Assembly: GCA_036768485.1 (NCBI GenBank)
Contig: JAVLUZ010000645.1
Coordinates: 248,001 to 312,000 of the forward strand
From: Mermis nigrescens
Lineage: Eukaryota > Nematoda > Enoplea > Mermithida > Mermithidae
Length of the DNA: 64,000 bases
Direction of reading: 5' to 3'
Shown here: in pieces, positions 1,248 to 40,044 of the stretch
Position numbering within the stretch: the first letter of the stretch is position 1
Layout: the number at the start of each line of letters is the position of its first letter
Position numbers and translations under genes: made by a program
The notes under the pieces: generated by a model
What the model was told of the DNA's origin: nothing
Seen by the model: only the letters and a program-made list of their open reading frames with translations
The model's database searches: none

Positions 1248-2322
1248 TAATTAAAGTGAAATTCTGCATTGACAGAAACAGCAAACAAAAGGCAGGCGCA
1301 GCATCAAACACATCAGTGTGTAAAACAAACACAACAATGCGTTTGCCATTAAAAATCGCAGGTAATGGACGAAAGCACAAGAACAAAATAGAAATCAGTC
1401 ATTGAGCAAGGCAATATGAATTAAACCGGCAAAAATGAACAATCAAGTTGACGCGTCAGCAAATGCAAATGATTCTAGAAAATTGATGAACCGCTTACAT
1501 TCCAAAAATGGAGACATTAATTTGCATCGATTTAAACATACAAAAATTTTGGAATCCGTTCGATAAAGATGGCGCATGAGAATTATAGTCAAGTTTTGTA
1601 ATTATAAGTGAATGATATTCTAAGAAGGTTTACATAATGTACATACAAAATATTCCAACATTAAATACTGACCCAAAAATAAAATAGTACACCTGAATCT
1701 GGAGTTTCATAAAGCGATCCAAAAAGAAGCCAACAGGTTACTTAACCTGAATAGACCAATAAGTCGCAAAAGTTTCACGGTTTTGCTGATAGAACGTTTT
1801 TTTAACGGAAATTCACATTAAATGCGTCTCAAAGCGAAGATTTTAGCTTGATTATACTATTTCGAAAAAATATTTCTCATTTTAGTCAACTTTGAAAATA
1901 GTGAATGTTTGCGAATCAAGATGATTATTTATTAAAAATCAGTCAAAAAAACTTTGAAATAAAAAAATCTGATCAAACAATATGCAATACGGAGTAAAAT
2001 ATTGGCATTAGAAAACATGTGCATGATTAATACTTCTCCCCTTCACAGCTCAGCAAACACGGGCTGTAGAAGAATTTAAGGGTCAGATTTATTATTTTGA
2101 TGTTACAAAGAACATTTTCAAAAAGCAATATTGAGCGTAAATAAACAAAATTAATTTTGAAGTGTACCGCTTAGGACAGGGCACATTTTTAAGATAATTT
2201 GCACGTTCCATCTAGTAAGTGGAGATGACGACAGAAAACATATTTTTTCCGTTCCAGACTCTTTACACTAGACCGCTTATTAATTTGAAAATATTACTCC
2301 TTCAGAATAAATTAAAAACACT
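1248..2322. other. AT-rich non-coding stretch
   Basis: No splice-bounded exon, RNA gene or flanked repeat could be supported here. Open frames are short and of biased composition. Confidence 0.5.
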
Positions 2323-2916
2323 CAGTGGCGGATCTAGGATTTTCCTAAGGGGTGGCGGCATCCCAACTTCTCCAAAAAAACAGTCGAAAATAGGTCCAAA
2401 AATTTGCCCTTAACGGGCATATAGGTTTTTTGGTGTTTTACATCGTATACTTTTACATAAAATCACTTTTGACACAATGTTTTTCTTGAAATTTTAAAAT
2501 TTTAGACAATTTCGTGCGAAAAAATCATTAAATTTCTATGACTTCAACAAAAATCTGGCGCGAAGCGCCTGAAAATTTGTGAAATTAAGGCGGATAGACG
2601 TCTAGAAGCATGATTTACTGCTTGATTTCCAGTATTTATAGCATTTGATGCAAAATATCGAAATTTCTACTTGAATATAGAAGAAAACTATGCAAAAATA
2701 GCTGTTTCTGCTGCTAAACTTGTTTTAAAACCTACATGAACAGAAAATGGCTTCCAGGTCGCCAAGAAAGTAAATAAATGTCATTAATAGTATCATCCGG
2801 CGCATAGCGCCGGAAAAATTTGAGAAATTATGGTCACTGACGGCCAAAAATCATTGCAAATTGCATAACCATTCTTTATCTCGCCAAATATTCTTGACCG
2901 ATGGGGGCCGCCCCTT
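2323..2916 (+). mobile_element. hAT-like element, CAGTGGCGGATC family
   Basis: The left end is CAGTGGCGGATCTAGGATTT. An exact 8-bp AAAACACT lies directly before it (2315-2322) and directly after the right boundary (2917-2924). The right end keeps only the inner part of the inverted repeat (AAGGGG complement), so the terminal ~24 bases seem to be missing. It contains two GGCGC-GCGCC mini-hairpins near 2559 and 2798. Related ends are seen at 8379 and 18365. Confidence 0.6.
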
Positions 2917-2924
2917 AAAACACT

Positions 2925-3921
2925 TCACTATAATGCAAAACTGTCCACATTTTGAAACCAATCAGACTGAATCGAATACAAAACTATCATTATTTATTAT
3001 TTTTTTTATTTCATTCATTTATTTAGTTATTTATATACTTTCTATTAATGTTTCTTTTTTATTGTTATTAATATTAATATGATTATCATTATTATCATTA
3101 TATTTATTTGTAGTTTCTATAATTTTAATTCGTTTATCTATTTATTCATTCTTTTTATTTTTTGTAATTAGAGGCAGTCTAGCCGCCTAGACTGGTGCCG
3201 CTAGGTTGCAGTGACTGTCAGAGGATTGAAGGCACGAAACTGTAGCAACCTAGTTCCTCTCTGATGACCTCGTCTGTTTATATAATTTTTTTGTTCCATT
3301 TTTCTTTTTTCTTTTCTATGTAAGTTTTCGTTTTATAATCCTATCTATTTTTCTTTTTCAATTAGACTCTTGCGCCTCATAAAACATGTAATATCTCATA
3401 ATATAATTTTGTTAGGTACACTTGTGCTATTTCACGCGTTCTGTTTGTTTCTTTCTTACTATTAGCATGATGCACCTCTATATCTGTCTTTCTTTCTTCT
3501 CTTTTTTAACTTTTTCTCTTTTCTTTTTTATTATTTGCTGTTTCATTGATCTATTTATTTACTTATTTATTTTTCTCCTCATTTTCCTTATTCTTTTTTA
3601 TTTGCTTCTTTCTCGTATTGACGACTTCTTACTATTACATAGGTATGCTTCTGCACATACAAACAGTAGGAAACCGTCTACTTTACAGTTTTGTGCAACA
3701 ACCACAAAAAAACTTTTATTATCAGATTTGTAACCTAATCATCAAGGGCAACATTTAAAAGAAATTTGGCCCCCTCAGATCATTTGATTTTTCGGTTTAC
3801 AGTTACACACTCACCACTAACTCGATATTGAGTGCAAACAAAAACAAAAAAGGGAGCATCGAGTTTTTTATCATCTACCTTTAAAAAAGCCGCACCACCC
3901 AGATACGTGCCGTAATAGCTT
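2925..3921. other. T-rich low-complexity DNA with a small hairpin block
   Basis: Long runs of T and TTTATT. The long open frames in it are hydrophobic composition artefacts. Around 3172-3285 there is a compact GC-richer island with two clear stems (CAGTCTAG/CTAGACTG and CTAGGTTGC/GCAACCTAG). No gene is recognised. Confidence 0.5.
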
Positions 3922-26721: not shown

Positions 26722-27916
26722 TTTCTCAATAGTTTGCTCAAACGGAAAGAATAAGTCTCATAAAGAAATGCACACTGAAAAATTATTAATGGACATGAAA
26801 AACTTTGAACAGGTAAGTGGTAGATAAAACCCCTTTCTCTAAGGCATTATTTCAGTACATTGTGTGCAACAAAAACTTCTAAAATTTACGAATTAAGGGC
26901 ACTGAAAAGGTATAAATGATGCCAAACGATTTTGTCTTTATTTCTAAAAATAAATATGTTTAAATTCAATTCAACCTTTTGAATTAAAAATTTAGATACA
27001 AAATAAATTTATATATTTATACATAAAATAACATAATACAACTTATAATCTAGTGTTTTCTATGAAGCTTAAGATTTACAGCTTGTGATATGAAAAGGTA
27101 TGATTTTATATTATGATAATAACGATTTCCTGCATTAATCACATCAGGCACTAAAACAAGCCGATTACTGCAATGCAACTTGTGCGCGTGATAAATATGA
27201 TTGATAAGAAACAATGATCGTCAAAATGAGAAAAGTAAACAAATGATGGCACAGTAGATTCGTTGAGTCAAACCAAATATTTCCACTTTATGTGACCTTG
27301 AATTTATTTGCTTAAACCACGGCCCAAATTGATAGCTGCGTTATAACTAAAAACGTCACCTTAATAGCTAAGAATATATTTATACTGGGTAGGTAGGTAG
27401 GTACTCTTGAAGCCCATTCAAAAATAGCGTTACAATTAAGCATAAACGCCAGTATAAAGCAGGTCCATCAGTATAAGCTATCAGCTAGCAGAGAAGTCGC
27501 GTTATATGTTCTCAGCGTATGAGAAGCAGGTGGTTGAGCAATTGGGCAAGCTAAGTAAAAGGGAGTGCAAAAAGTTATTGGCGAAATGAAGAGTCGAATG
27601 ATTTCTCACACAAAGTAGTTTTTCGTTGGACATTTTCGAACCAGCAAAAATCTACAATTACGGTGGACGCTCTCTTTAGACATTGTGCAGAGATATTCCG
27701 ATTCTATTTTCAAGAGTCTAATACGGACCTTAATTAACCAAGAGATTAGCAGAAAAAATTTGTATAAGACTTCTCTGCCCACAGATGAGTAGGCAGTAGG
27801 TCTATCCATAACACATTAACGGATTGGTTTCAATTAGCAGGATGGTGGTAAAAAATTTAAGGATGGAGAATTAGGAGCAGTTAGAAGTCAATTATCGGTA
27901 GGTATTTTATATGCCT
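26722..27916. other. Upstream region of SELENBP1
   Basis: Likely holds the SELENBP1 promoter and 5' leader on the minus strand. AT-rich, with a short GGTAGGTAGGTAGG run near 27388. No core promoter element can be assigned by eye. Confidence 0.4.
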
Positions 27917-28177
27917 CATGCCTGGGCGTGAGGGGTTTTGGGGTATGCATCCCCAGAAATCAAAATACTCCCCCAGAAACCAAAATAACCCCTCAGAATT
28001 CAATTTTTAAATTTTTTTTGGTTTTTTTCGCAATTTTTTGATGCCAATGAATTATGCTCGATAAGAAACGTTGAAAAATGGTGTTTATTCGCCATACAAC
28101 CATTTTTAGGGCCATTTTATGACCTTTGAAAGAATTTTGCACCCCCTTCCCTAGAGCTTTGTTGCCGCCCACCTATG
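27917..28177 (-). mobile_element. hAT-like element, family B
   Basis: Bounded by CATGCCTGGGCG and CGCCCACCTATG with the family body (AATTTTTTGATGCCAATG in this orientation). No clear duplication, so possibly an older copy. Confidence 0.7.
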
Positions 28178-29141: not shown

Positions 29142-29527
29142 CATAGGCGTAGCCAGGATTTTCGCCAGGGGGATTCCGAAAAAATTTTTCGTCTAAAAAA
29201 CGCGTAAAAACGCGCGGGGCCGTTGAATAACGTGTTTTTTGGGCTTTTCACATCATACTGCACGATTTGAGCCATTGAAAAATTAAATTTTCTCAAAAAA
29301 TTTTTCATGTTTTTGACGGAAAAAATGCTTCTTATGCCCGCGAAGCGCTAATTTTTTGATTTTCCGCCAATAAAACGGTAGAAACTGCCAAATAATAGAA
29401 TAAACCGGCGCGAAGCACCAAATTTTTCGATTTTTCATCGCAAAACAACATCACGCAACCATATTGTTCACTTTTTGAAAATGTAAAAATTTTCCCCAGG
29501 GGGAATCCCCCACTGGCTACGCCAGTG
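29142..29527. mobile_element. hAT-like element with GGCGTAGCCA termini
   Basis: Left end CATAGGCGTAGCCAGGATTT, right end complement CACTGGCGTAGCCAGTGGG; flanked by CTGACGAC and CTGACCAC (7/8). Contains two GCGCGAAGC-type motifs near 29338 and 29407. Confidence 0.8.
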
Positions 29528-29532
29528 CTGAC

Positions 29533-29798
29533 CACACCTGGGCGTGGGGGTTTGGGGGGTATGCAACCCCCAGAAACCAAAATACCCCCCAGAAATCAAA
29601 ATACCCCCCAGAATTCTATTTTTGAAAATTTTTTTCGTTTTTTTCGCAATTTTTTGATGCCAATGGATAGTGCTTGATGAGAAACGTCGAAAAATGGTGT
29701 TTTTATCGCCATACCACCATTTTTAAGGCCATTTTTTGATCTTCAAAAAAATCTTGCACCCCCCCCAGAATTTTCTTGCTGCCCAGTGCCCACGTATG
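29533..29798 (-). mobile_element. hAT-like element, family B
   Basis: CACACCTGGGCGTGGG to GCCCACGTATG, flanked by GTGCTGAC and TAGCTGAC (6/8). It starts 6 bp after the previous element. Confidence 0.75.
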
Positions 29799-31504: not shown

Positions 31505-32004
31505 TGTAACCAAAAAGAGGTCAGGAAATCTAGTAATTTAACACCTGCCCCTCTCAGACTACAATGTGGGGAATCGCTATGCTGTAGTACATACGACAAT
31601 CCCTAACGCAGAGTAATATATTAAATAATAATAATAGCATTAGGCCCAAAATAACAATACGCCAAATGAATACGTAAATAAATTGCGGTAAACACCGCCG
31701 CCCGACTCAGCTTCGCGTCCTAACTCTCGACTGACAAAAATCGGCCGAAAAAGGCAAAGAACGACGACAATACGCCAAAATATTTAAATAGAATTCAAGA
31801 TGACCAAAAACGACGCTTTTGGAAAAGCGTCCAGAATTATTAACCGGAAATGAGCATTAGGCAAGATAATTGCATGAGATACATAATAAATGAACAAATG
31901 TCTACAGACTGTACGTAATAAAGAAATTTGCATCAAAAAGCAAGGATTAGAAAGAAAATCAGTTAATCTTTGTGTTAATTTCTTTAATTCCTATTCTCGT
32001 TACA
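31505..32004 (-). repeat. 3' LTR
   Basis: 500 bp starting TGTAACCAAAAAGAGG and ending TTCTCGTTACA on the plus strand, with TGTAAC/GTTACA inverted ends. Matches 38847-39346 base for base as far as I can compare. Confidence 0.95.
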
Positions 32005-32044
32005 CTCCTTACGCCTCAAGAGAAGACCCCCAGTTCTACAAGAA

Positions 32045-32293
32045 CTAAGAACGCTCTGAAACGAATCGGCTGAAACGACAAGTGTCGCTAGCAGCAGCTT
32101 GCTGTCGATCCTGCCGATCCTCTCGTCCTGTGGCTCGACCTCCGTTTCTCGCTTCGCGTTCCAATCGTGGCACCAAACGACGATGCGTGTGGCGACGATC
32201 TTTTAAAACCGTGCGCATCGCTTCCGCCAGACTCTTGGCCGGACGACCCAACTCGGCCTGCGCTTTGGTCAGCAACCCTTTGCGTTGTCCTAT
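32045..32293 (-). other. In-frame 82-codon extension after the exonuclease stop
   Basis: Directly after the TAG that ends the exonuclease (32294-32296) the same frame stays open to 32045. The product is highly charged (RTVLKDRRHTHRRLVPRLER, GREDRQDRQQ) and as GC-rich as the exonuclease gene. It could be reached by stop readthrough, or the TAG could be a new mutation splitting one 461-codon gene. Confidence 0.5.
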
Positions 32294-33433
32294 CTAATGG
32301 GAATTGATTTGCATGTCCAACCTCTGACGGAGCAGCTCCTTCATCAATTCAGCATGGTTGCCGCATGACTTGCGATACAATTCAAACCATTGGCCCAAAA
32401 ACTCGTTGCAGAAGTAATTCCATGGCGTACTGTAGTCGTACGCCTTCCTCCACGCTTTCCGGAAGTCATACGCATCCCTTTTGACGCGCCGATCCAGTTT
32501 GAAAGGCAAGGACTCGAGGCGCCCAGCCGCCACAACCACAATATCATTAGCACAAGCACACGGGGGAGAAGTCTCCCGAACCGCGACAGCCAAACCAAGA
32601 TGCGTTCTCAGTGTGGCCACCGTTGTTCCGACTGTCCACACGCCCAAACGACTCCATAGCAACCCAACATCCAGGGATGCAAGTGCATCCCGTGCAGCAT
32701 ACAGGACCATCGATGACTTGAAATTTTGAAAGTCCTTATTCCAATAGAACATGATCCCTCGCTCCTCCTTGGAAAGCTCGAGACCAAACCCGCGTGCCAC
32801 GAACGAAGCCAGAGTGGCTTTCTTGGACGACCAAGCCTCCGGAAAATCATGGATGCGACCCTGCTGCTCGACCAGTCGATAGTGTTTGAGCAAATCGAAG
32901 ATACCCCCACCATCGATCCTCGATCCTCCAAACGTATTGCCAATGGCGCGAACGTCCTGGTCGAAGTCTTGCCCGAAACGCAGCACAGCCTTGTCCATGA
33001 ACAATCGGGCCAGCGACTCGGGCACCTTTTCGAATTTATGCAAATCGAAGATGTAGACAGTTCCGTCGATCTTAGCCATCTGCAGTATCCGGGCGAAGCC
33101 GCCCTTTTTCGTCTTGGCAATCTTCGGCGCCAACAACTTTTTCTGGTTGGAATGCCATTGTTCGTACGGTCTGCTCCCATTGACGAACTCTGCATCAACC
33201 CCCAACACCACCGGCACATTTTCCGCCCATGGCTTCCTCAAAACCGCCACCGCCTCATCACACTCGACAATCGACTGCACCGTCCGAACGTTGCGAACTT
33301 GCAGGGGCTGACGTCCCAGAGCACGCAGCCATACCAATCGCAAACACTCAAATTTCGGGCCATCAACCTCGGACAGGCCCTCATTAGAATTCTGAGGTCG
33401 ACCAAACACTCCTCCGCTAAGCAATATACTCAT
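32294..33433 (-). CDS. DEDDy 3'-5' exonuclease encoded in the env position
   Basis: 379 codons from an ATG at 33433. The exonuclease core spans about residues 75-265: Exo I GVDAEF (D80, E82), Exo II GQDFDQDVRAIG (D160), and Exo III YAARDA (Y245, D249), with the helix KATLASFVARGFGLELSKEE before it, the order seen in WRN/EXD2/RNase D relatives. All four acidic residues and the tyrosine are present, so it could be active on nucleic acid ends with two metal ions. Residues 1-70 and 270-379 are unassigned. It lies 142 bp past the pol stop and before the 3' LTR, where gypsy elements keep env. It is markedly richer in GC than the AT-rich gag-pol, suggesting capture from a host or other genome. A pyrimidine-rich tract ending in AG upstream (minus strand, about 33510-33480) could be the acceptor of a spliced subgenomic mRNA. 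Confidence 0.85.
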   Translation of the reverse strand: MSILLSGGVFGRPQNSNEGLSEVDGPKFECLRLVWLRALGRQPLQVRNVRTVQSIVECDEAVAVLRKPWAENVPVVLGVDAEFVNGSRPYEQWHSNQKKLLAPKIAKTKKGGFARILQMAKIDGTVYIFDLHKFEKVPESLARLFMDKAVLRFGQDFDQDVRAIGNTFGGSRIDGGGIFDLLKHYRLVEQQGRIHDFPEAWSSKKATLASFVARGFGLELSKEERGIMFYWNKDFQNFKSSMVLYAARDALASLDVGLLWSRLGVWTVGTTVATLRTHLGLAVAVRETSPPCACANDIVVVAAGRLESLPFKLDRRVKRDAYDFRKAWRKAYDYSTPWNYFCNEFLGQWFELYRKSCGNHAELMKELLRQRLDMQINSH

Positions 33434-33574
33434 GTTAAAGATAGCTCAAAACAAAAATCATTAACAACGTTCAATTCACTACAGGGCTTCAAGAGTGTGA
33501 GGAGGAAAGGTATAGAAAAAATTGTAAATAAATAAAAACTAAATCAAAAGTTTGATTAGTTAAATAAATTAATA

Positions 33575-36163
33575 TTAAGCTTCAGAAGGTACTGAAGCAT
33601 TAGACGCAAAGTAGTCTTTACGTGCTAACTCGTGTGCTTCAGAAAATCCCTTCATGCGATTATTACCAAACAAGTGAGTACTTGTTTCAAACGAAAGCAC
33701 TTTTTCCGAATCACAAAGTCCAAAGCATTTCTTCAAAACGTAGAAGCGTACTGGAATTTTCTCGTAATCTTTCAGATTTAGTTTTGCTGGAATGTCCGTA
33801 AAATTGATAATTTTAGCTGGCCAAAACGGATAACCTTTTATCTTCGCAAAAACTACGTCGCCAACTTTGAAATTCGGCCGTAATTTCGAATTTTCAAAGT
33901 TTTCCGCTTTTTTCAATCGATTTACATGCACTAACTTTGAAAAGCGTTCGTCCGCCATCAAAGCTATTTTTGCGTTTAAATCCGAAATTTTTTCGATTAT
34001 TTTGAATGGTCCATCCCATTTGAGAGCTAATTTGGGAGAAACTCCCTCGCCCAAAGCAGCCTTGTGTAAGTACACAATATCACCAACATTAAAGTTAATT
34101 TGAACAGAATGTTTGTCATACTGTTCTTTCTGGTGTTTTTGCGCCTTTTCAATCGATTTTCGAGCATTTTCTTGCATTTCGGATAAAGTATTTTTCAGAA
34201 AATCTAGAAAGTTCTCTTCTGAAAATACAGAACGTTGATCTGGCGAAATTTGGACTTCTAATGGATATCTAGGTTCTCTACCATACATAAGCATGAATGG
34301 TGAGATGCCAGTAGATTCCTGGCAACATGCACGATACGCAAAAAGTACAAACGGCACATATAAATCCCACAAAAGTGGCTGTCGAGAGACTAGAGTAGAT
34401 AAAGCTGATGCTAAAGTGCGATTAAACCGTTCTACCAAGCCGTCAGTCTGGGGGTGATACGCCGAAGTAAAAATTTTTTGTACTTCCAAAATTTCGCAAA
34501 TTTCTTTCAATAATTTCGACGAAAAATTCCCACCTTTGTCCGACAAAAGCTGTCTAGGTGTACCATGCCGACAAACAATTTCTTTCACGAAAATATTAGC
34601 TATAGTAGAAGCTTTCAGATCACTAATGGGGTATGCCTCCGCCCATTTTGTTAAATAATCTAGGAATACTACAACGTAGCGATTTCCACTTGAAGCAATA
34701 GGGAATTCCATACAGTCAACAGCTATTTTATCCCAAGGGCCTTCAACAGGAATATTTTGCAAAGGAGCACGTACTTTTGTTACCGGTGACTTACGCTTGA
34801 TGCATATCTCACACGTTTTGCACCATGCTGTAACGTCTTCCGTTATAGTAGGCCACCAAAAACGCTGCAAAATTTTACCCATTGTTCTAGCTATCCCGAA
34901 ATGGGCACCGAATTCGGAGTCGTGTAGTTCTTTAAGCACTGTGGGAATCCACTGGCGCGGAACGACTGTTTGCCATATCATCGCGCTGCTCCTCTTCGGT
35001 CTGTACCGGCGAACTAAAATATTATTTAAAATATCGAATTCATTTTTAATTTCCAATGGGCATTCATACGATTTAAGCTGTTCTTTAATATTACAAATGA
35101 ATTCGTCTTTTTCTGCCTCGCTTTGAAATTCATTTTCAGGTTCCTTTAAAATAACCGGCGCAACGTTTTGATTTCTAGAAAGCCAATCAGAAGCTCCATT
35201 TTCTTTCCCAGGCGTAAATGAAATTTCAAAATCAAATTCTTGAAGCTTTAAAGCCCAACGCATTAGCTTCCCACTATGATCTTTTAAATTTAATAACCAT
35301 TTTAAAGGTTTATGATCTGTCATAATTATGAATTTATTTCCATATAAATAATCTTTGAAATATTTAGTAGCCCATACAATACAAAGAGCTTCACGTTCGA
35401 TAGTAGAATAGTTACATTCATGAACATTAAGAACGCGAGAGGCATAGGCAAGCACCCATTTTTCTTCTCCTCGTTTCTGGCTCAAAACTGCCCCCAATGC
35501 ATTGCTGCTTGCATCAGTATTTAATACAAAAGTAGCACTTGAGTCAAAAACTGGAAATCTCAGAATCGGGGGATTAATAAAATCGCTTTTCAATTCTTCA
35601 AATATTTTTGTATGTTTCTCTGTCCAAACGAATTTTACGCTTTTGCTTGTTAATTTATATAACGGACCAACTTTCTTAGCTAGATTAGGTACAAATCGTT
35701 TAAACCATTGCACACTACCTAAGAACGATTGCAATTGTTTTACAGTCTTAGGAGGTTCTGCATTGACAATAGAAGAAACCTTCTTGGGATCAGGCTGGAT
35801 CCCTTTCTCAGATACCACATGACCCAAGTAGGTCACTTCGGACTGTAAAAAATTGCATTTTTCCGGCTTTATCTTTAAATTCACCTTTCTTAATGCCGAA
35901 AATACGTCGCTTAGATCTTTCAAATGTTTCTCGAATGATTTAGAGAATACCAAAATGTCGTCTATATAAACTAGACATGAACGCCATTGTAGGCCAGATA
36001 GAGCAATTTCCATAATTCTTTGAAAATCTGCTGGGGCATTTTTAATTCCAAAAGGCATTACCGTAAATTCGTAGTGTCCAAAACTTGTAGTGAAAGCGGT
36101 TTTCTCCCGGGAGTCCGGGTCCATTTCTATCTGCCAGTAACCAGAACGCAAATCAAGAGTCGA
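33575..36163 (-). CDS. pol: Gypsy pol: reverse transcriptase, RNase H, integrase, PWWP
   Basis: About 860 codons continuing the polyprotein after the frame break. RT has the catalytic VYIDDILVFS (about residues 61-70 of this part). RNase H has NTDASSNALGAVLSQ and DHKPLKWLL. Integrase has the HHCC zinc finger (HDSEFGAHFGIA to CKTCEIC) and the DDE core (DCMEF, LLSDKGGNFSS, ERFNRTL). Unlike chromoviruses, which end in a chromodomain, the last ~100 residues begin VGDVVFAKIKGYPFWPAKI, a PWWP domain of the HDGF/LEDGF type that in other proteins binds histone H3 methylated at lysine 36. The first codon of the open stretch is not a start; it is entered from the upstream frame. Confidence 0.93.
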   Translation of the reverse strand, partial: STLDLRSGYWQIEMDPDSREKTAFTTSFGHYEFTVMPFGIKNAPADFQRIMEIALSGLQWRSCLVYIDDILVFSKSFEKHLKDLSDVFSALRKVNLKIKPEKCNFLQSEVTYLGHVVSEKGIQPDPKKVSSIVNAEPPKTVKQLQSFLGSVQWFKRFVPNLAKKVGPLYKLTSKSVKFVWTEKHTKIFEELKSDFINPPILRFPVFDSSATFVLNTDASSNALGAVLSQKRGEEKWVLAYASRVLNVHECNYSTIEREALCIVWATKYFKDYLYGNKFIIMTDHKPLKWLLNLKDHSGKLMRWALKLQEFDFEISFTPGKENGASDWLSRNQNVAPVILKEPENEFQSEAEKDEFICNIKEQLKSYECPLEIKNEFDILNNILVRRYRPKRSSAMIWQTVVPRQWIPTVLKELHDSEFGAHFGIARTMGKILQRFWWPTITEDVTAWCKTCEICIKRKSPVTKVRAPLQNIPVEGPWDKIAVDCMEFPIASSGNRYVVVFLDYLTKWAEAYPISDLKASTIANIFVKEIVCRHGTPRQLLSDKGGNFSSKLLKEICEILEVQKIFTSAYHPQTDGLVERFNRTLASALSTLVSRQPLLWDLYVPFVLFAYRACCQESTGISPFMLMYGREPRYPLEVQISPDQRSVFSEENFLDFLKNTLSEMQENARKSIEKAQKHQKEQYDKHSVQINFNVGDIVYLHKAALGEGVSPKLALKWDGPFKIIEKISDLNAKIALMADERFSKLVHVNRLKKAENFENSKLRPNFKVGDVVFAKIKGYPFWPAKIINFTDIPAKLNLKDYEKIPVRFYVLKKCFGLCDSEKVLSFETSTHLFGNNRMKGFSEAHELARKDYFASNASVPSEA

Positions 36164-38739
36164 AAAAAATTTGCACCCGACAGGCTATCCAAACATTCCT
36201 GGAGCCTAGGAATCGGATAAATATCGGTTTTGGTTACTTTATTTAAACCGCGATAATCTACAACAGGTCGTGCCGTCCCATCTTTCTTTTTAACAAGAAA
36301 CATGTTAGCCGACCACGGACTTCTGGAAGGAACAATTATTCCATCCTTTTCCAATTCTTTCACGATCTTTTGCAACTCCAATTTTTGCCGAAATGGAATT
36401 TGAAACTGCTTTGCTTTGACTGGCTCATGATCCCCCGTATCAATTTTATGCTTAACTATGGTTGTCCTACCGAGGGAATCATTGCCTGAGCTGAAAACAT
36501 CGGAATTCTTTGCAAGCAAATCTTTAAGTTCTTTCTTTTGCTGTTCGTTCACTGAAAATTTCGCCTTTTCGAAATATTGCTCGATGCAGTTTTTTATATT
36601 TTTAGCATTATTTTCGCCCGTCGAAAATGAGAATTTTTCAATAGAGGTGAAGTCCTCTAGCCGACCCACCTGTGTACCGGCTTCAATATGAATAGGCTTA
36701 TTATGCACATTAAGTAAACGTACAGGCACAGAATTAGTTTCAGATGTTATTAAAGCAGCAGCTACGAACAAAGATGTTTCGCTACATAGATTTTCATCTG
36801 GAACAAATAAAGCTTCCTTTTTCGTATTACAGTTTAATAACTGAGCATTAAATAAAGCTTCACATCTTGCAGGAATGAAAATAGAATCCGTAGTGCACAC
36901 GTATGCAAGATTAGAACCAGATTCCAAGTTACTATAAATAGGCTGATATAAAGAAATTTTTTCACCATTTATAGTACTATATCCGTCAGCTATATGAGGA
37001 ATTACGTAATGCTTATCGATGAAATCGCATCCAAAAATGATGTTGAATGGTGCTTTTTCTACCAACGAAAAAGTTTCGTTAAAAGCTTGATTTCCAATGG
37101 TAAAATCTAAAACTAATTTACCTAAAATATCAAGTTTTGAGCAACTAGCAGTTCGACATGATGCTATCGGCTTTCCTTTTTTCAGATTCATCTTTAGGTG
37201 CATGTTTACGAATTCCATAGATATAAGAGTTACGTCGCTTCCAGTATCAATTAATGCATTAGTTTCATTACCGTTTATGCACATTTTCACTATCGGCAAC
37301 TTACGTTGTCTCATCATTCCTACCGTACTAGAATTCGGTCCTTCTAGCTCCATAAGTCGTTTCACCAATTCCGCATTTTGCTGGAGAAGCTGCTCTAACG
37401 TGTCGCCAACGGTATTCGTCGAACTCCTCGGCGAACTATCGTTATAATTTTCGTGAGACGTCTTTTTAGAAAGGCTAAGTGGCCGATTTTCGAATTTCGG
37501 ATTTTCAAAGGTGCGCGGCCAATTTCCTCGAGGCTTGCCAGCAAACGCCGTTGGACATTGATAGCTCAAATGTCCTTTCCCGCCGCACCTGTAACAATTT
37601 AAAGGCGAATTAGCTTTACTATATTGACCCTTTGGCAACATAGGTCTAGGAGCATTATATCGTTGATAATTATTAAAATTTGGAATATTACGCTGATAAT
37701 TATTATAATTTGAACTGCTAAAAGGCCTTTGAGTTAGAGGCTTTTTCTGCCATCTATCCAAATTTTGATTCGAATCAGTTTTGTCGCGATTTTCACCCCT
37801 TTTTTCTGACGATAAATTTGTTTTTATCTCTTTTAATTGTTGCGAAAGTTCACTGATAGCCGACCATAATTTTCCGTCGTTTCCTTCCCCAGTCCTTACA
37901 GTCAAAACTGACTCGGGTTGAGAAGATTCAGCTCCCAGCACAGGTATGCCAGCCCACATGTCAGGCTTAAACGGAGATTCTACTCTTTTTGCGATTTCCA
38001 AAGCTTTTTCTAACGTTTCAGGTGTGCCAGAGATCGTGAAAATGTTATGATATTTAGGCAACAACCCATTCATAAATTGCACTTTTATAAGCGTTTCCAT
38101 TTCCGCCTTATTATTCGCTAAATTAGGATAAGCTCGTTTACACATAGTCGTAAGTTTATGGCAGAACAGATCTATTGATTCATTTCTTTCTTGTTTTCTG
38201 CCATGAAATTCAATGATCGTTTTTTCTCGAACGGCTGGAGGTTGAAAATGATTGATTAAATAAGCTTTTACATTTGCATAATCGTTACGTTGATCTTCAG
38301 GTATTCCAAAAAATACTGAACGAGGATACGATAACAAGCAAAGAGGTAAAGCAGCTAATTTAACTTCATCGTTTAATCCACCCGCTGATGATAACGAATC
38401 AAATTCTTCGAAAAAGTGAAAAATGGACTTGCCCGTTTCACCGGCAAATTTTTTGACACTTCTCTCGGCAATTTGAAGAAATTGCATTCGCTGCAATGCA
38501 TTTACTACTTCAGAATTTTGCGCCATTTTCTCCTCGTTTTCAGATTCAAACTCAAATAAATCGAAAGCTCGACCGAGTCTACAAAATTCTTTAAAAATTT
38601 TACCTTCGTCGAGGCTACCTTTTTCTTTACTTCCTTTTACTACCGAAATTTCTTCTCGTCCTTTCTCCGAATGAGCTCTGCTACGTGTCTCAACCGCTAA
38701 TGGTGGCAACGAACGATGACTGGATCGCGGACGAGGCAT
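36127..38739 (-). CDS. gag: Gypsy gag, protease and start of reverse transcriptase
   Basis: 870 codons from the ATG at 38739. Gag core at about residues 85-260 (FFGIPEDQRNDYANVKAYLI, INHFQPPAVREKTIIEFHG); a CCHC zinc knuckle CYRCGGKGHLSYQC near residues 382-395; an aspartic protease with NALIDTGSDVTLIS near 494-507; and the N-terminal RT fingers from about 765 (DGIIVPSRSPWSANMFLVKK, ARPVVDYRGLNKV). It terminates 13 codons after SGANFF because an A-run at 36163-36169 is one base out of register with pol. As gag, protease and RT are otherwise in one frame, this is damage or a sequencing error rather than a gag-pol shift site. Confidence 0.93.
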   Translation of the reverse strand: MPRPRSSHRSLPPLAVETRSRAHSEKGREEISVVKGSKEKGSLDEGKIFKEFCRLGRAFDLFEFESENEEKMAQNSEVVNALQRMQFLQIAERSVKKFAGETGKSIFHFFEEFDSLSSAGGLNDEVKLAALPLCLLSYPRSVFFGIPEDQRNDYANVKAYLINHFQPPAVREKTIIEFHGRKQERNESIDLFCHKLTTMCKRAYPNLANNKAEMETLIKVQFMNGLLPKYHNIFTISGTPETLEKALEIAKRVESPFKPDMWAGIPVLGAESSQPESVLTVRTGEGNDGKLWSAISELSQQLKEIKTNLSSEKRGENRDKTDSNQNLDRWQKKPLTQRPFSSSNYNNYQRNIPNFNNYQRYNAPRPMLPKGQYSKANSPLNCYRCGGKGHLSYQCPTAFAGKPRGNWPRTFENPKFENRPLSLSKKTSHENYNDSSPRSSTNTVGDTLEQLLQQNAELVKRLMELEGPNSSTVGMMRQRKLPIVKMCINGNETNALIDTGSDVTLISMEFVNMHLKMNLKKGKPIASCRTASCSKLDILGKLVLDFTIGNQAFNETFSLVEKAPFNIIFGCDFIDKHYVIPHIADGYSTINGEKISLYQPIYSNLESGSNLAYVCTTDSIFIPARCEALFNAQLLNCNTKKEALFVPDENLCSETSLFVAAALITSETNSVPVRLLNVHNKPIHIEAGTQVGRLEDFTSIEKFSFSTGENNAKNIKNCIEQYFEKAKFSVNEQQKKELKDLLAKNSDVFSSGNDSLGRTTIVKHKIDTGDHEPVKAKQFQIPFRQKLELQKIVKELEKDGIIVPSRSPWSANMFLVKKKDGTARPVVDYRGLNKVTKTDIYPIPRLQECLDSLSGANFFRLLICVLVTGR

Positions 38740-38824
38740 TCATCTTTTTTAATAGCAAATCACCAATCCAATCCGTAAATGATTTCGTGATAGTTCACTC
38801 GGTCCTAAATAGAACAAGAGTTCG

Positions 38825-38842
38825 ATGAATGTGGGACCTCCA
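38825..38842 (-). promoter_or_regulatory. Candidate primer-binding site
   Basis: Four bases inside the 5' LTR the minus strand reads TGGAGGTCCCACATTCAT. A TGG start complementary to a tRNA CCA end is the usual signature; the tRNA is not identified. Confidence 0.45.
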
Positions 38843-38846
38843 AAAT

Positions 38847-39346
38847 TGTAACCAAAAAGAGGTCAGGAAATCTAGTAATTTAACACCTGCCCCTCTCAGA
38901 CTACAATGTGGGGAATCGCTATGCTGTAGTACATACGACAATCCCTAACGCAGAGTAATATATTAAATAATAATAATAGCATTAGGCCCAAAATAACAAT
39001 ACGCCAAATGAATACGTAAATAAATTGCGGTAAACACCGCCGCCCGACTCAGCTTCGCGTCCTAACTCTCGACTGACAAAAATCGGCCGAAAAAGGCAAA
39101 GAACGACGACAATACGCCAAAATATTTAAATAGAATTCAAGATGACCAAAAACGACGCTTTTGGAAAAGCGTCCAGAATTATTAACCGGAAATGAGCATT
39201 AGGCAAGATAATTGCATGAGATACATAATAAATGAACAAATGTCTACAGACTGTACGTAATAAAGAAATTTGCATCAAAAAGCAAGGATTAGAAAGAAAA
39301 TCAGTTAATCTTTGTGTTAATTTCTTTAATTCCTATTCTCGTTACA
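38847..39346 (-). repeat. 5' LTR
   Basis: 500 bp, same sequence as 31505-32004. It should contain the element's promoter and polyadenylation signals; none could be pinned down. Confidence 0.95.
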
Positions 39347-39511
39347 CAATTACGCTGATTGGCTGAATTTTCACTGCTTTCGAATCGCCTTACTATAAAA
39401 AAGTCAAGAATTTTGAAACAGTAATGCTTCTTCACAAAAGCTTAATACGCAGTCTGTCTTTAAAAGGTCGACCGAGACGCGGCGTTTCTTTGGCTCGGAC
39501 CGGCTGCCGAG

Positions 39512-40044
39512 CACACCTGGGCGTGGGGGCGTTTGGGGGTATGCACCCCCAGAAACCAAAATACCCCCCCAGAAATCAAAATACCCCCAGAATTCAATTT
39601 TTGAAAAATTTTTTCGTTTTTTTCGCAATTTTTTGATGCCAATGGATAGTGCTTGATGAGAAACGTCGAAAAATGGTGTTTTTATTGCCCTACCACCATA
39701 CGTGGGCAGCAGCAAGAAAATTCTGGGGGTGCAAGATTTTTTTGAAGGTCGAAAAATGGCCTTAAAAATGGTGGTATGGCGATAAAAACACCATTTTTCG
39801 ACGTTTCTCATCAAGCACTATCCATTGGCATCAAAAAATTGCGAAAAAACGAAAAAATTTCAAAAATTGAATACTGGGGGGGGTATTTTGATTTCTGGGG
39901 GGTATTTGGTTTCTGGGGGGTGCATACCCCCCAAACCCCCCCCCCCCCACGCCCAAGGTGTGCCTACCACCATTTTTAAGGCCATGTTTTGACTTTCAGA
40001 AAATCTTGCACCCCCCCCCAGAATTTTTTTGCTGCCCACGTATG
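39512..40044 (-). mobile_element. hAT-like family B element, interrupted by another copy
   Basis: Starts CACACCTGGGCG, ends GCCCACGTATG, flanked by exact 8-bp CTGCCGAG (39504-39511 and 40045-40052). Without the insertion 39697-39962 it is about 260 bp. Confidence 0.9.
39697..39962 (+). mobile_element. hAT-like family B element nested in 39512-40044
   Basis: 266 bp, opposite orientation to its host, CATACGTGGGCAGC to CCAAGGTGTG, flanked by exact 8-bp CCTACCAC (39689-39696 and 39963-39970). Confidence 0.9.

Follow-up and report, generated by a model that had tools for sequence, protein, structure and literature searches.

DEDDy exonucleases are known as third open reading frames (ORF3) of the long terminal repeat (LTR) retrotransposons Juno and Vesta of bdelloid rotifers, and also from Athena/Terminon, as described in the accessible text of the original report (Rodriguez, Kenefick, Arkhipova 2017, PMC5408684). 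According to the same text, the DEDD motif of these ORF3s has become DEED, pol of Juno and Vesta contains a dUTPase, and the exonuclease ORFs have no coiled-coil or membrane domain and do not depart significantly from neutrality. The extra ORFs are missing from the earliest branches, and were judged to be relatively recent, patchily distributed and gained at least twice. Processing of cDNA or RNA ends was suggested as their role, both there and in the accessible part of a 2019 review (PMC6431247). According to the accessible part of a 2019 opinion paper (PMC6338049), the DnaQ-like exonuclease is well known as an accessory domain; Ustyantsev 2017 (PMC5348765), which that paper cites beside this statement, makes no mention of exonuclease, DnaQ, PWWP or DEDD. 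Viral ExoN proteins can serve in immune suppression (arenaviruses) or proofreading (nidoviruses), as stated in the accessible text of PMC7968707. They resemble the present case as 3'-5' exonucleases on a mobile genome, but they are of the DEDDh type and belong to RNA viruses, and no kinship is claimed. A literature search over titles and the opening parts of abstracts, with few subscription papers covered, returned no report of a DEDDy ORF3 from a nematode.

Here, we analyzed such an ORF in Mermis nigrescens, in a window (the whole stretch of DNA under study) of 64,000 nucleotides on contig JAVLUZ010000645.1. Compared by published description, the likeness to Juno and Vesta is in an RNase D/WRN-type DEDDy exonuclease encoded as ORF3, 3' of pol, in an LTR element. 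In contrast to the bdelloid elements, those of Mermis keep DEDD, and their exonuclease is found in every group of the exonuclease-bearing clade that was sampled and is constrained between lineages. No match to dUTPase, the Juno/Vesta feature, was found in the window frames or in the frames scanned of four other loci (L041-L044).

The element occupies positions 31505-39346 on the minus strand of the window (Table 1). The first-pass annotation had placed a 379-codon ORF downstream of pol, inside the LTRs of a gypsy retrotransposon, and this placement holds: the domain order between the LTRs is protease (PR), reverse transcriptase (RT), RNase H, integrase (IN), as in Ty3/gypsy elements, and the ORF follows pol. 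Its strand is minus, which corrects that annotation. The RT of the window copy is broken, because gag-protease-RT and the remaining pol occupy different frames, with the frame change at 36127-36151; in L041, which belongs to a related subfamily, the corresponding stretch is read in a single frame. Inspection of the flanks of the window element by eye detected no 4-6 bp repeat that could be a target-site duplication. Identical LTRs yet no target-site duplication at 31505 and 39346 may point to inter-element recombination or to an assembly join. A 195-bp repeat flanks the element on both sides in three copies (27910-28104, 29526-29720 and 39505-39699), 72% and 87% identical to the reference copy. 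The tRNA and Rfam scans of the window gave no matches.

Table 1. Features of the LTR retrotransposon in the window.
Feature	Position	Strand	Evidence or remark
5' LTR, 500 bp, TGTAAC...GTTACA	38847..39346	-	full-length identity to 3' LTR
Primer-binding-site-like TGGAGGTCCCAC, 4 nt inward of 5' LTR	38831..38842	-	read from sequence; presumably resembles the tRNA-Gln 3' end
gag, protease and RT start, open frame of 870 aa	36127..38739	-	CCHC knuckle, RVP, weak RVT_1 start
Remaining RT, RNase H and integrase, other frame, 858 aa open	33575..36151	-	RVT_1, RT_RNaseH, Integrase_H2C2, rve
PWWP domain, HDGF/LEDGF type, integrase C-terminus	33617..33862	-	PF00855, E = 5.3e-10
AT-rich spacer, GC 0.255, 141 bp, pol stop to exonuclease ATG	33434..33574	-	
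Putative DEDDy 3'-5' exonuclease ORF, 379 codons, truncated copy	32294..33433	-	PF01612, E = 3.1e-5; profile match to WRN/EXD2/mut-7
In-frame continuation past the stop, basic C-terminal region within the open frame of longer relatives	32048..32293	-	tail identity 97-99% in L002-L005 and L008
3' LTR, 500 bp	31505..32004	-	identical to 5' LTR

The ORF encodes a putative DEDDy 3'-5' exonuclease, as judged from its residues and profile matches. The match to DNA_pol_A_exo1 (PF01612), at 24.3 bits, is just above the cut-off of 23.6, so that this search does not refute the exonuclease identity proposed in the first-pass annotation, and all five active-site residues named there are present: D80 and E82 (D-x-E), D160 (D), Y245 and D249 (Y-x3-D). 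A nine-sequence profile, which includes the window copy, matched WRN (E = 3.8e-11), EXD2 (3.1e-8) and a mut-7 homologue (2.8e-5) in the PDB, and PF01612 was listed at E ≤ 1 for all nine members (best 3.6e-10; first member 4.8e-5). The likeness to WRN, EXD2 and MUT-7 thus consists of the catalytic motifs and the domain; unlike these proteins, the element ORFs are without a helicase, and in groups A and B (see below) they have a shared GRxPLxxR-like lead motif and their own C-terminal region. With the window sequence alone, the PDB search gave only chance matches (two cofilin-like, E of 0.5-0.6), and its single-sequence AlphaFold model had a pLDDT of 32. Protein-database searches with the queries P0001, A1 and A2 yielded no matches at E ≤ 0.01 among 7998, 7999 and 5076 candidates, respectively; scans of viral_contigs with these queries and the window pol frame found no relatives, and the best PHROGs match had an E of 0.25.

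The gene had been described as intact. The frame is indeed open for 379 codons, but in the sister copies L002, L003 and L004, which are 98-99% identical to the window query, it runs uninterrupted to 462 codons, and in the window copy the in-frame stop is followed by about 82 further open codons. Therefore, the window ORF is truncated at the C-terminus by an in-frame stop. The basic C-terminal region that it lacks is alignable between group A families.

The genome searched comprised 523,963,438 bases in 860 contigs; the published assembly, per the accessible text of its description, totals 524,220,005 bp over 867 scaffolds, with repeats making up 83.98% (PMC10989877). The window protein matched at least 136 genome stretches, which are not to be equated with elements, at E ≤ 0.01 (108 of 807 candidates scored). 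Among the 30 exonuclease loci listed, which include two duplicates (L026 is the L008 element and L027 is the L006 element), 27 had a pol-like sequence on their own strand at a distance of up to about 1.5 kb, the exceptions being L019, L027 and L029. Many of the exonuclease-bearing copies are broken. Exonuclease-bearing elements have moved recently: L011-L014 occupy four different sites and share 99.9-100% identity, all four with an exonuclease ORF that is open over 444 codons, and the LTRs of the C128 copy are identical across the 542 bp aligned.

To describe the distribution of the gene, we used the integrase half of the window element as a query, which gave at least 94 genome matches (93 of 4532 candidates scored). 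At 56-100% identity, 49 of the 53 pol matches were followed by an exonuclease match 145-1287 nt downstream (one place is entered twice among the 53, and 82 of the 136 exonuclease matches were used in the comparison); the other four are partial pol matches. At 40-46% identity there were 41 matches, and all five of those sampled, which belong to groups C and D below, had a downstream exonuclease ORF (profile E of 4.5e-42 to 1.1e-16). Thus, other copies do carry the gene, and we reject a one-off host-gene capture, the outcome under which the initial interpretation would have failed.

The relatives include the following: (i) group B (L033, L036, L045, L047 and L048), with the integrase upstream of the exonuclease, drawn from a genome search with PF01612 (22 matches) and six further stretches; (ii) group C, with a 538-aa ORF in L053 and an ORF split over two frames in L051; (iii) group D (L052, L054 and L055), with the exonuclease domain in the first half of open frames of at least 900 aa. 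PF01612 is below the cut-off or has no match in groups C and D, a result that counts against the explanation that we favor below. The group D ORFs (L052, L054, L055 and L061) extend several hundred residues beyond the domain, with no significant Pfam match there. Elsewhere in the genome, PF01612 genes lie in exons at L035 and at L031, which we take to be Rrp6-like.

Six other integrase lineages, hand-picked from 150 matches, served as a control. One of the six (L061) has the exonuclease (E = 5e-47), and none was found in L056-L060 in the 3.6-3.7 kb examined per locus; over that span the best exonuclease E in L056-L059 was 0.06, and no ORF after the integrase exceeded 203 codons. It should be noted that in L060, of an exonuclease-less lineage, the integrase is followed by an ORF3 of another kind (1508-3631, plus strand), which has at least 708 codons and no Pfam match. 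In the integrase tree of 19 sequences, the 14 exonuclease-bearing ones fall in groups A-D, separate from the five without the gene, with a support of 61 for the node joining these five and no outside root. With this support and rooting, a single gain in the clade is the simplest reading, not proof. The exonuclease, present in all groups A-D sampled, looks old and near-universal in one clade.

Co-divergence with pol is indicative of the age of the gene. Across 89 pairs, which are not independent, exonuclease and pol identities are correlated (Spearman 0.77), and the two trees of 12 loci show no conflict among nodes with support of at least 90. A weak conflict, which counts against our favored explanation, concerns L009, placed with L002 in the exonuclease tree (support 85) and with L011/L015 in the pol tree (75). 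An alignment of the group A profile with that of group B spans 226 columns (probability 99.5) and starts from the shared GRxPLxxR-like motif ahead of the domain. Given this alignment and the co-divergence, the exonuclease probably predates the split of the groups.

The late capture implied by the first-pass annotation is not supported, given this co-divergence and the clade-wide sharing of the gene. The composition difference on which it drew is real (GC of 0.529 in the window exonuclease ORF and 0.379 in gag-pol), but we reject it as a mark of recent capture, because GC and GC3 of the exonuclease ORF exceed those of its own pol in each of the 14 loci used, among which three nearly duplicate other loci. 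Synonymous divergence was higher in the exonuclease than in pol in 64 of the 89 pairs. Of the 19 pairs whose pol is not close to saturation (pS below 0.65), 18 show this excess, the exception being the near-identical L036/L038. For example, synonymous divergence is 0.031 in pol and 0.107 in the exonuclease of L011/L015. Local module exchange or a regional mutation bias could account for the synonymous excess and the high GC; wholesale exchange of the ORF between clades is rejected on the identity correlation and the agreeing trees.

We aligned 11 ORFs drawn from groups A-D, whose identity to the first ranges over 20-54%. Of 295 gap-free columns, 17 are the same in every ORF; these include all five catalytic residues, with a chance probability of 3e-7 if columns are exchangeable. 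In two other copies, L040 and L046, the catalytic E is replaced by K, a point against the favored explanation. Nei-Gojobori ratios, where dS was finite, were 0.17-0.63 for the exonuclease, many pairs of which were saturated, and 0.08-0.23 for pol. The codon bootstrap gave pN/pS of 0.34-0.58 for five between-lineage exonuclease pairs, with pS near saturation, and 0.19 (95% interval 0.09-0.35) for L052/L054, the one pair that is not saturated, computed over the full length of the long ORF. Among the newest copies of the window family, identical pairs aside, there is no sign of constraint, since the exonuclease has 5-10 nonsynonymous and 0-2 synonymous changes; pol has 0-1 changes. Hence, as read from these ratios, the exonuclease amino-acid sequence is constrained between lineages and not among the newest copies. 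Nonsynonymous divergence is higher in the exonuclease than in pol in 88 of the 89 pairs.

Two companion domains were found in these elements. In groups A and C, the C-terminus of the integrase carries a PWWP domain of the HDGF/LEDGF type (window, L012, L030, L062 and L063; PF00855, E of 2e-15 to 5e-10). PDB matches of this domain in the window include HDGF (E = 1.4e-9) and PC4 and SFRS1-interacting protein, i.e., LEDGF (E = 2e-8). Two of the three group D frames scanned gave a PWWP match below threshold, and there was no match in three group B frames (L033, L047 and L048) or in two exonuclease-less frames (L056 and L060). Chromoviruses bear a chromodomain, and LEDGF tethers the lentiviral integrase; the likeness is in a chromatin reader beside the integrase, here a PWWP domain within the element's own integrase frame. 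No PWWP-bearing retrotransposon was found in the literature searched by title and opening of the abstract. The other companion is a Monjiviricetes-type fusion-glycoprotein-like domain (PF24664, also a weak PF00606), found in both group B elements examined, L043:268-4872 (E = 1.3e-17) and L044:2-3679 (E = 5.6e-16), each on the plus strand. It lies in the same open frame as RT and upstream of it, and the exonuclease lies downstream of pol. Such a location for an env-like domain is unusual. A 19-residue stretch with hydropathy of at least 1.6, the usual threshold for a membrane-spanning stretch, is absent in seven of nine exonuclease ORFs, including that of the window (maximum 1.17); L011 (1.64) and L045 (2.06) exceed it.

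The recurrence of the exonuclease across an element branch with its active site preserved suggests a real job for the elements, and the gene is very probably a conserved functional exonuclease gene of the clade. We propose that the window ORF is a truncated copy of the third gene conserved in one Ty3/gypsy-type clade. Its product would be made as a separate protein, from its own open frame outside Gag-Pol, would be catalytically active, and would serve the element in trans, as an accessory factor. Its most likely action would be the shortening of RNA 3' ends, which would blunt host small-RNA silencing at the level of guides or of amplification templates. This explanation as a whole, a third gene of the clade encoding such a trans-acting accessory exonuclease, falls somewhat short of probable. 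Its counter-silencing part is put forward tentatively; it is favored because the exonuclease is not part of the polyprotein, evolves fast except for a fixed core and has group-specific extensions, and because viral ExoN can suppress immunity. The mechanism itself is a guess based on the fast change around the fixed catalytic core and the separation from the polyprotein. No sequence feature points to RNA rather than DNA as the substrate, which counts against it.

Action of the exonuclease on the element's own nucleic acid, through cDNA 3'-end trimming, removal of misincorporated or displaced ends, or RNA 3'-end maturation, is a serious possibility, and we consider cDNA or RNA end processing nearly as likely as counter-silencing. 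It fits the best-scoring PDB relatives, WRN and EXD2, and the gap between the LTR end and the primer site (about 4 nt in the window and 5 nt in the C128 family, whose LTR end is inferred from sister copies), which would need removal; processing of RNA/ssDNA 3' ends is also proposed in the accessible parts of PMC5408684 and PMC6431247. The same proposal is strained by an exonuclease frame that is separate from pol in the loci examined and diverges faster than pol, and by the five other integrase lineages sampled that show no exonuclease in the 3.6-3.7 kb examined. In addition, LTR ends are normally trimmed by the integrase unaided.

It is improbable that the gene is a passenger of no benefit, derived from a host exonuclease by an old capture. 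The neutral-looking changes at the tips, the many broken copies and the bdelloid ORFs with no significant departure from neutrality (accessible text of PMC5408684) are what a passenger would show, but a pN/pS well below 1 between lineages already strains this idea, as do the catalytic residues invariant in 11 of 11 aligned ORFs and the retention of the gene in all four exonuclease-bearing groups, in two of which (A and B) the ORFs are open over 431-499 codons. The "env slot" of the first-pass annotation is right for the position after pol, and replacement of env in entry or exit is "formally possible" in the accessible text of PMC5408684, but we reject it as most improbable, despite the two ORFs with a hydrophobic stretch, because the window copy and six others have none and both clade-B elements examined carry the fusion-glycoprotein-like domain as well, so that the exonuclease is not simply an env substitute.

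Returning to the counter-silencing accessory exonuclease, a broader version would have a single old gain make the DEDDy exonuclease the hallmark of a large nematode gag-pol-exo clade, as a dedicated counter-silencing nuclease that was later combined with a PWWP integrase (groups A and C, with D as a weak case) or, in group B, a class-III-like fusion glycoprotein; we consider this version rather unlikely. What appears to be new is the deep, near-universal presence of the gene in one clade, the between-lineage constraint with intact DEDDy residues, and the combination of the exonuclease with a PWWP-bearing integrase or a fusion-glycoprotein-like domain.

The authors of the rotifer study, in its accessible text, could not tell whether the exonuclease ORFs benefit the element (PMC5408684). 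The use that a retrotransposon has for an exonuclease becomes testable in Mermis, because one genome offers many lineages with and without the gene, young, near-identical copies with an open ORF, and invariant active sites. Should small-RNA silencing be what the exonuclease acts on, this would be a case of a counter-defence gene carried by an animal transposon.
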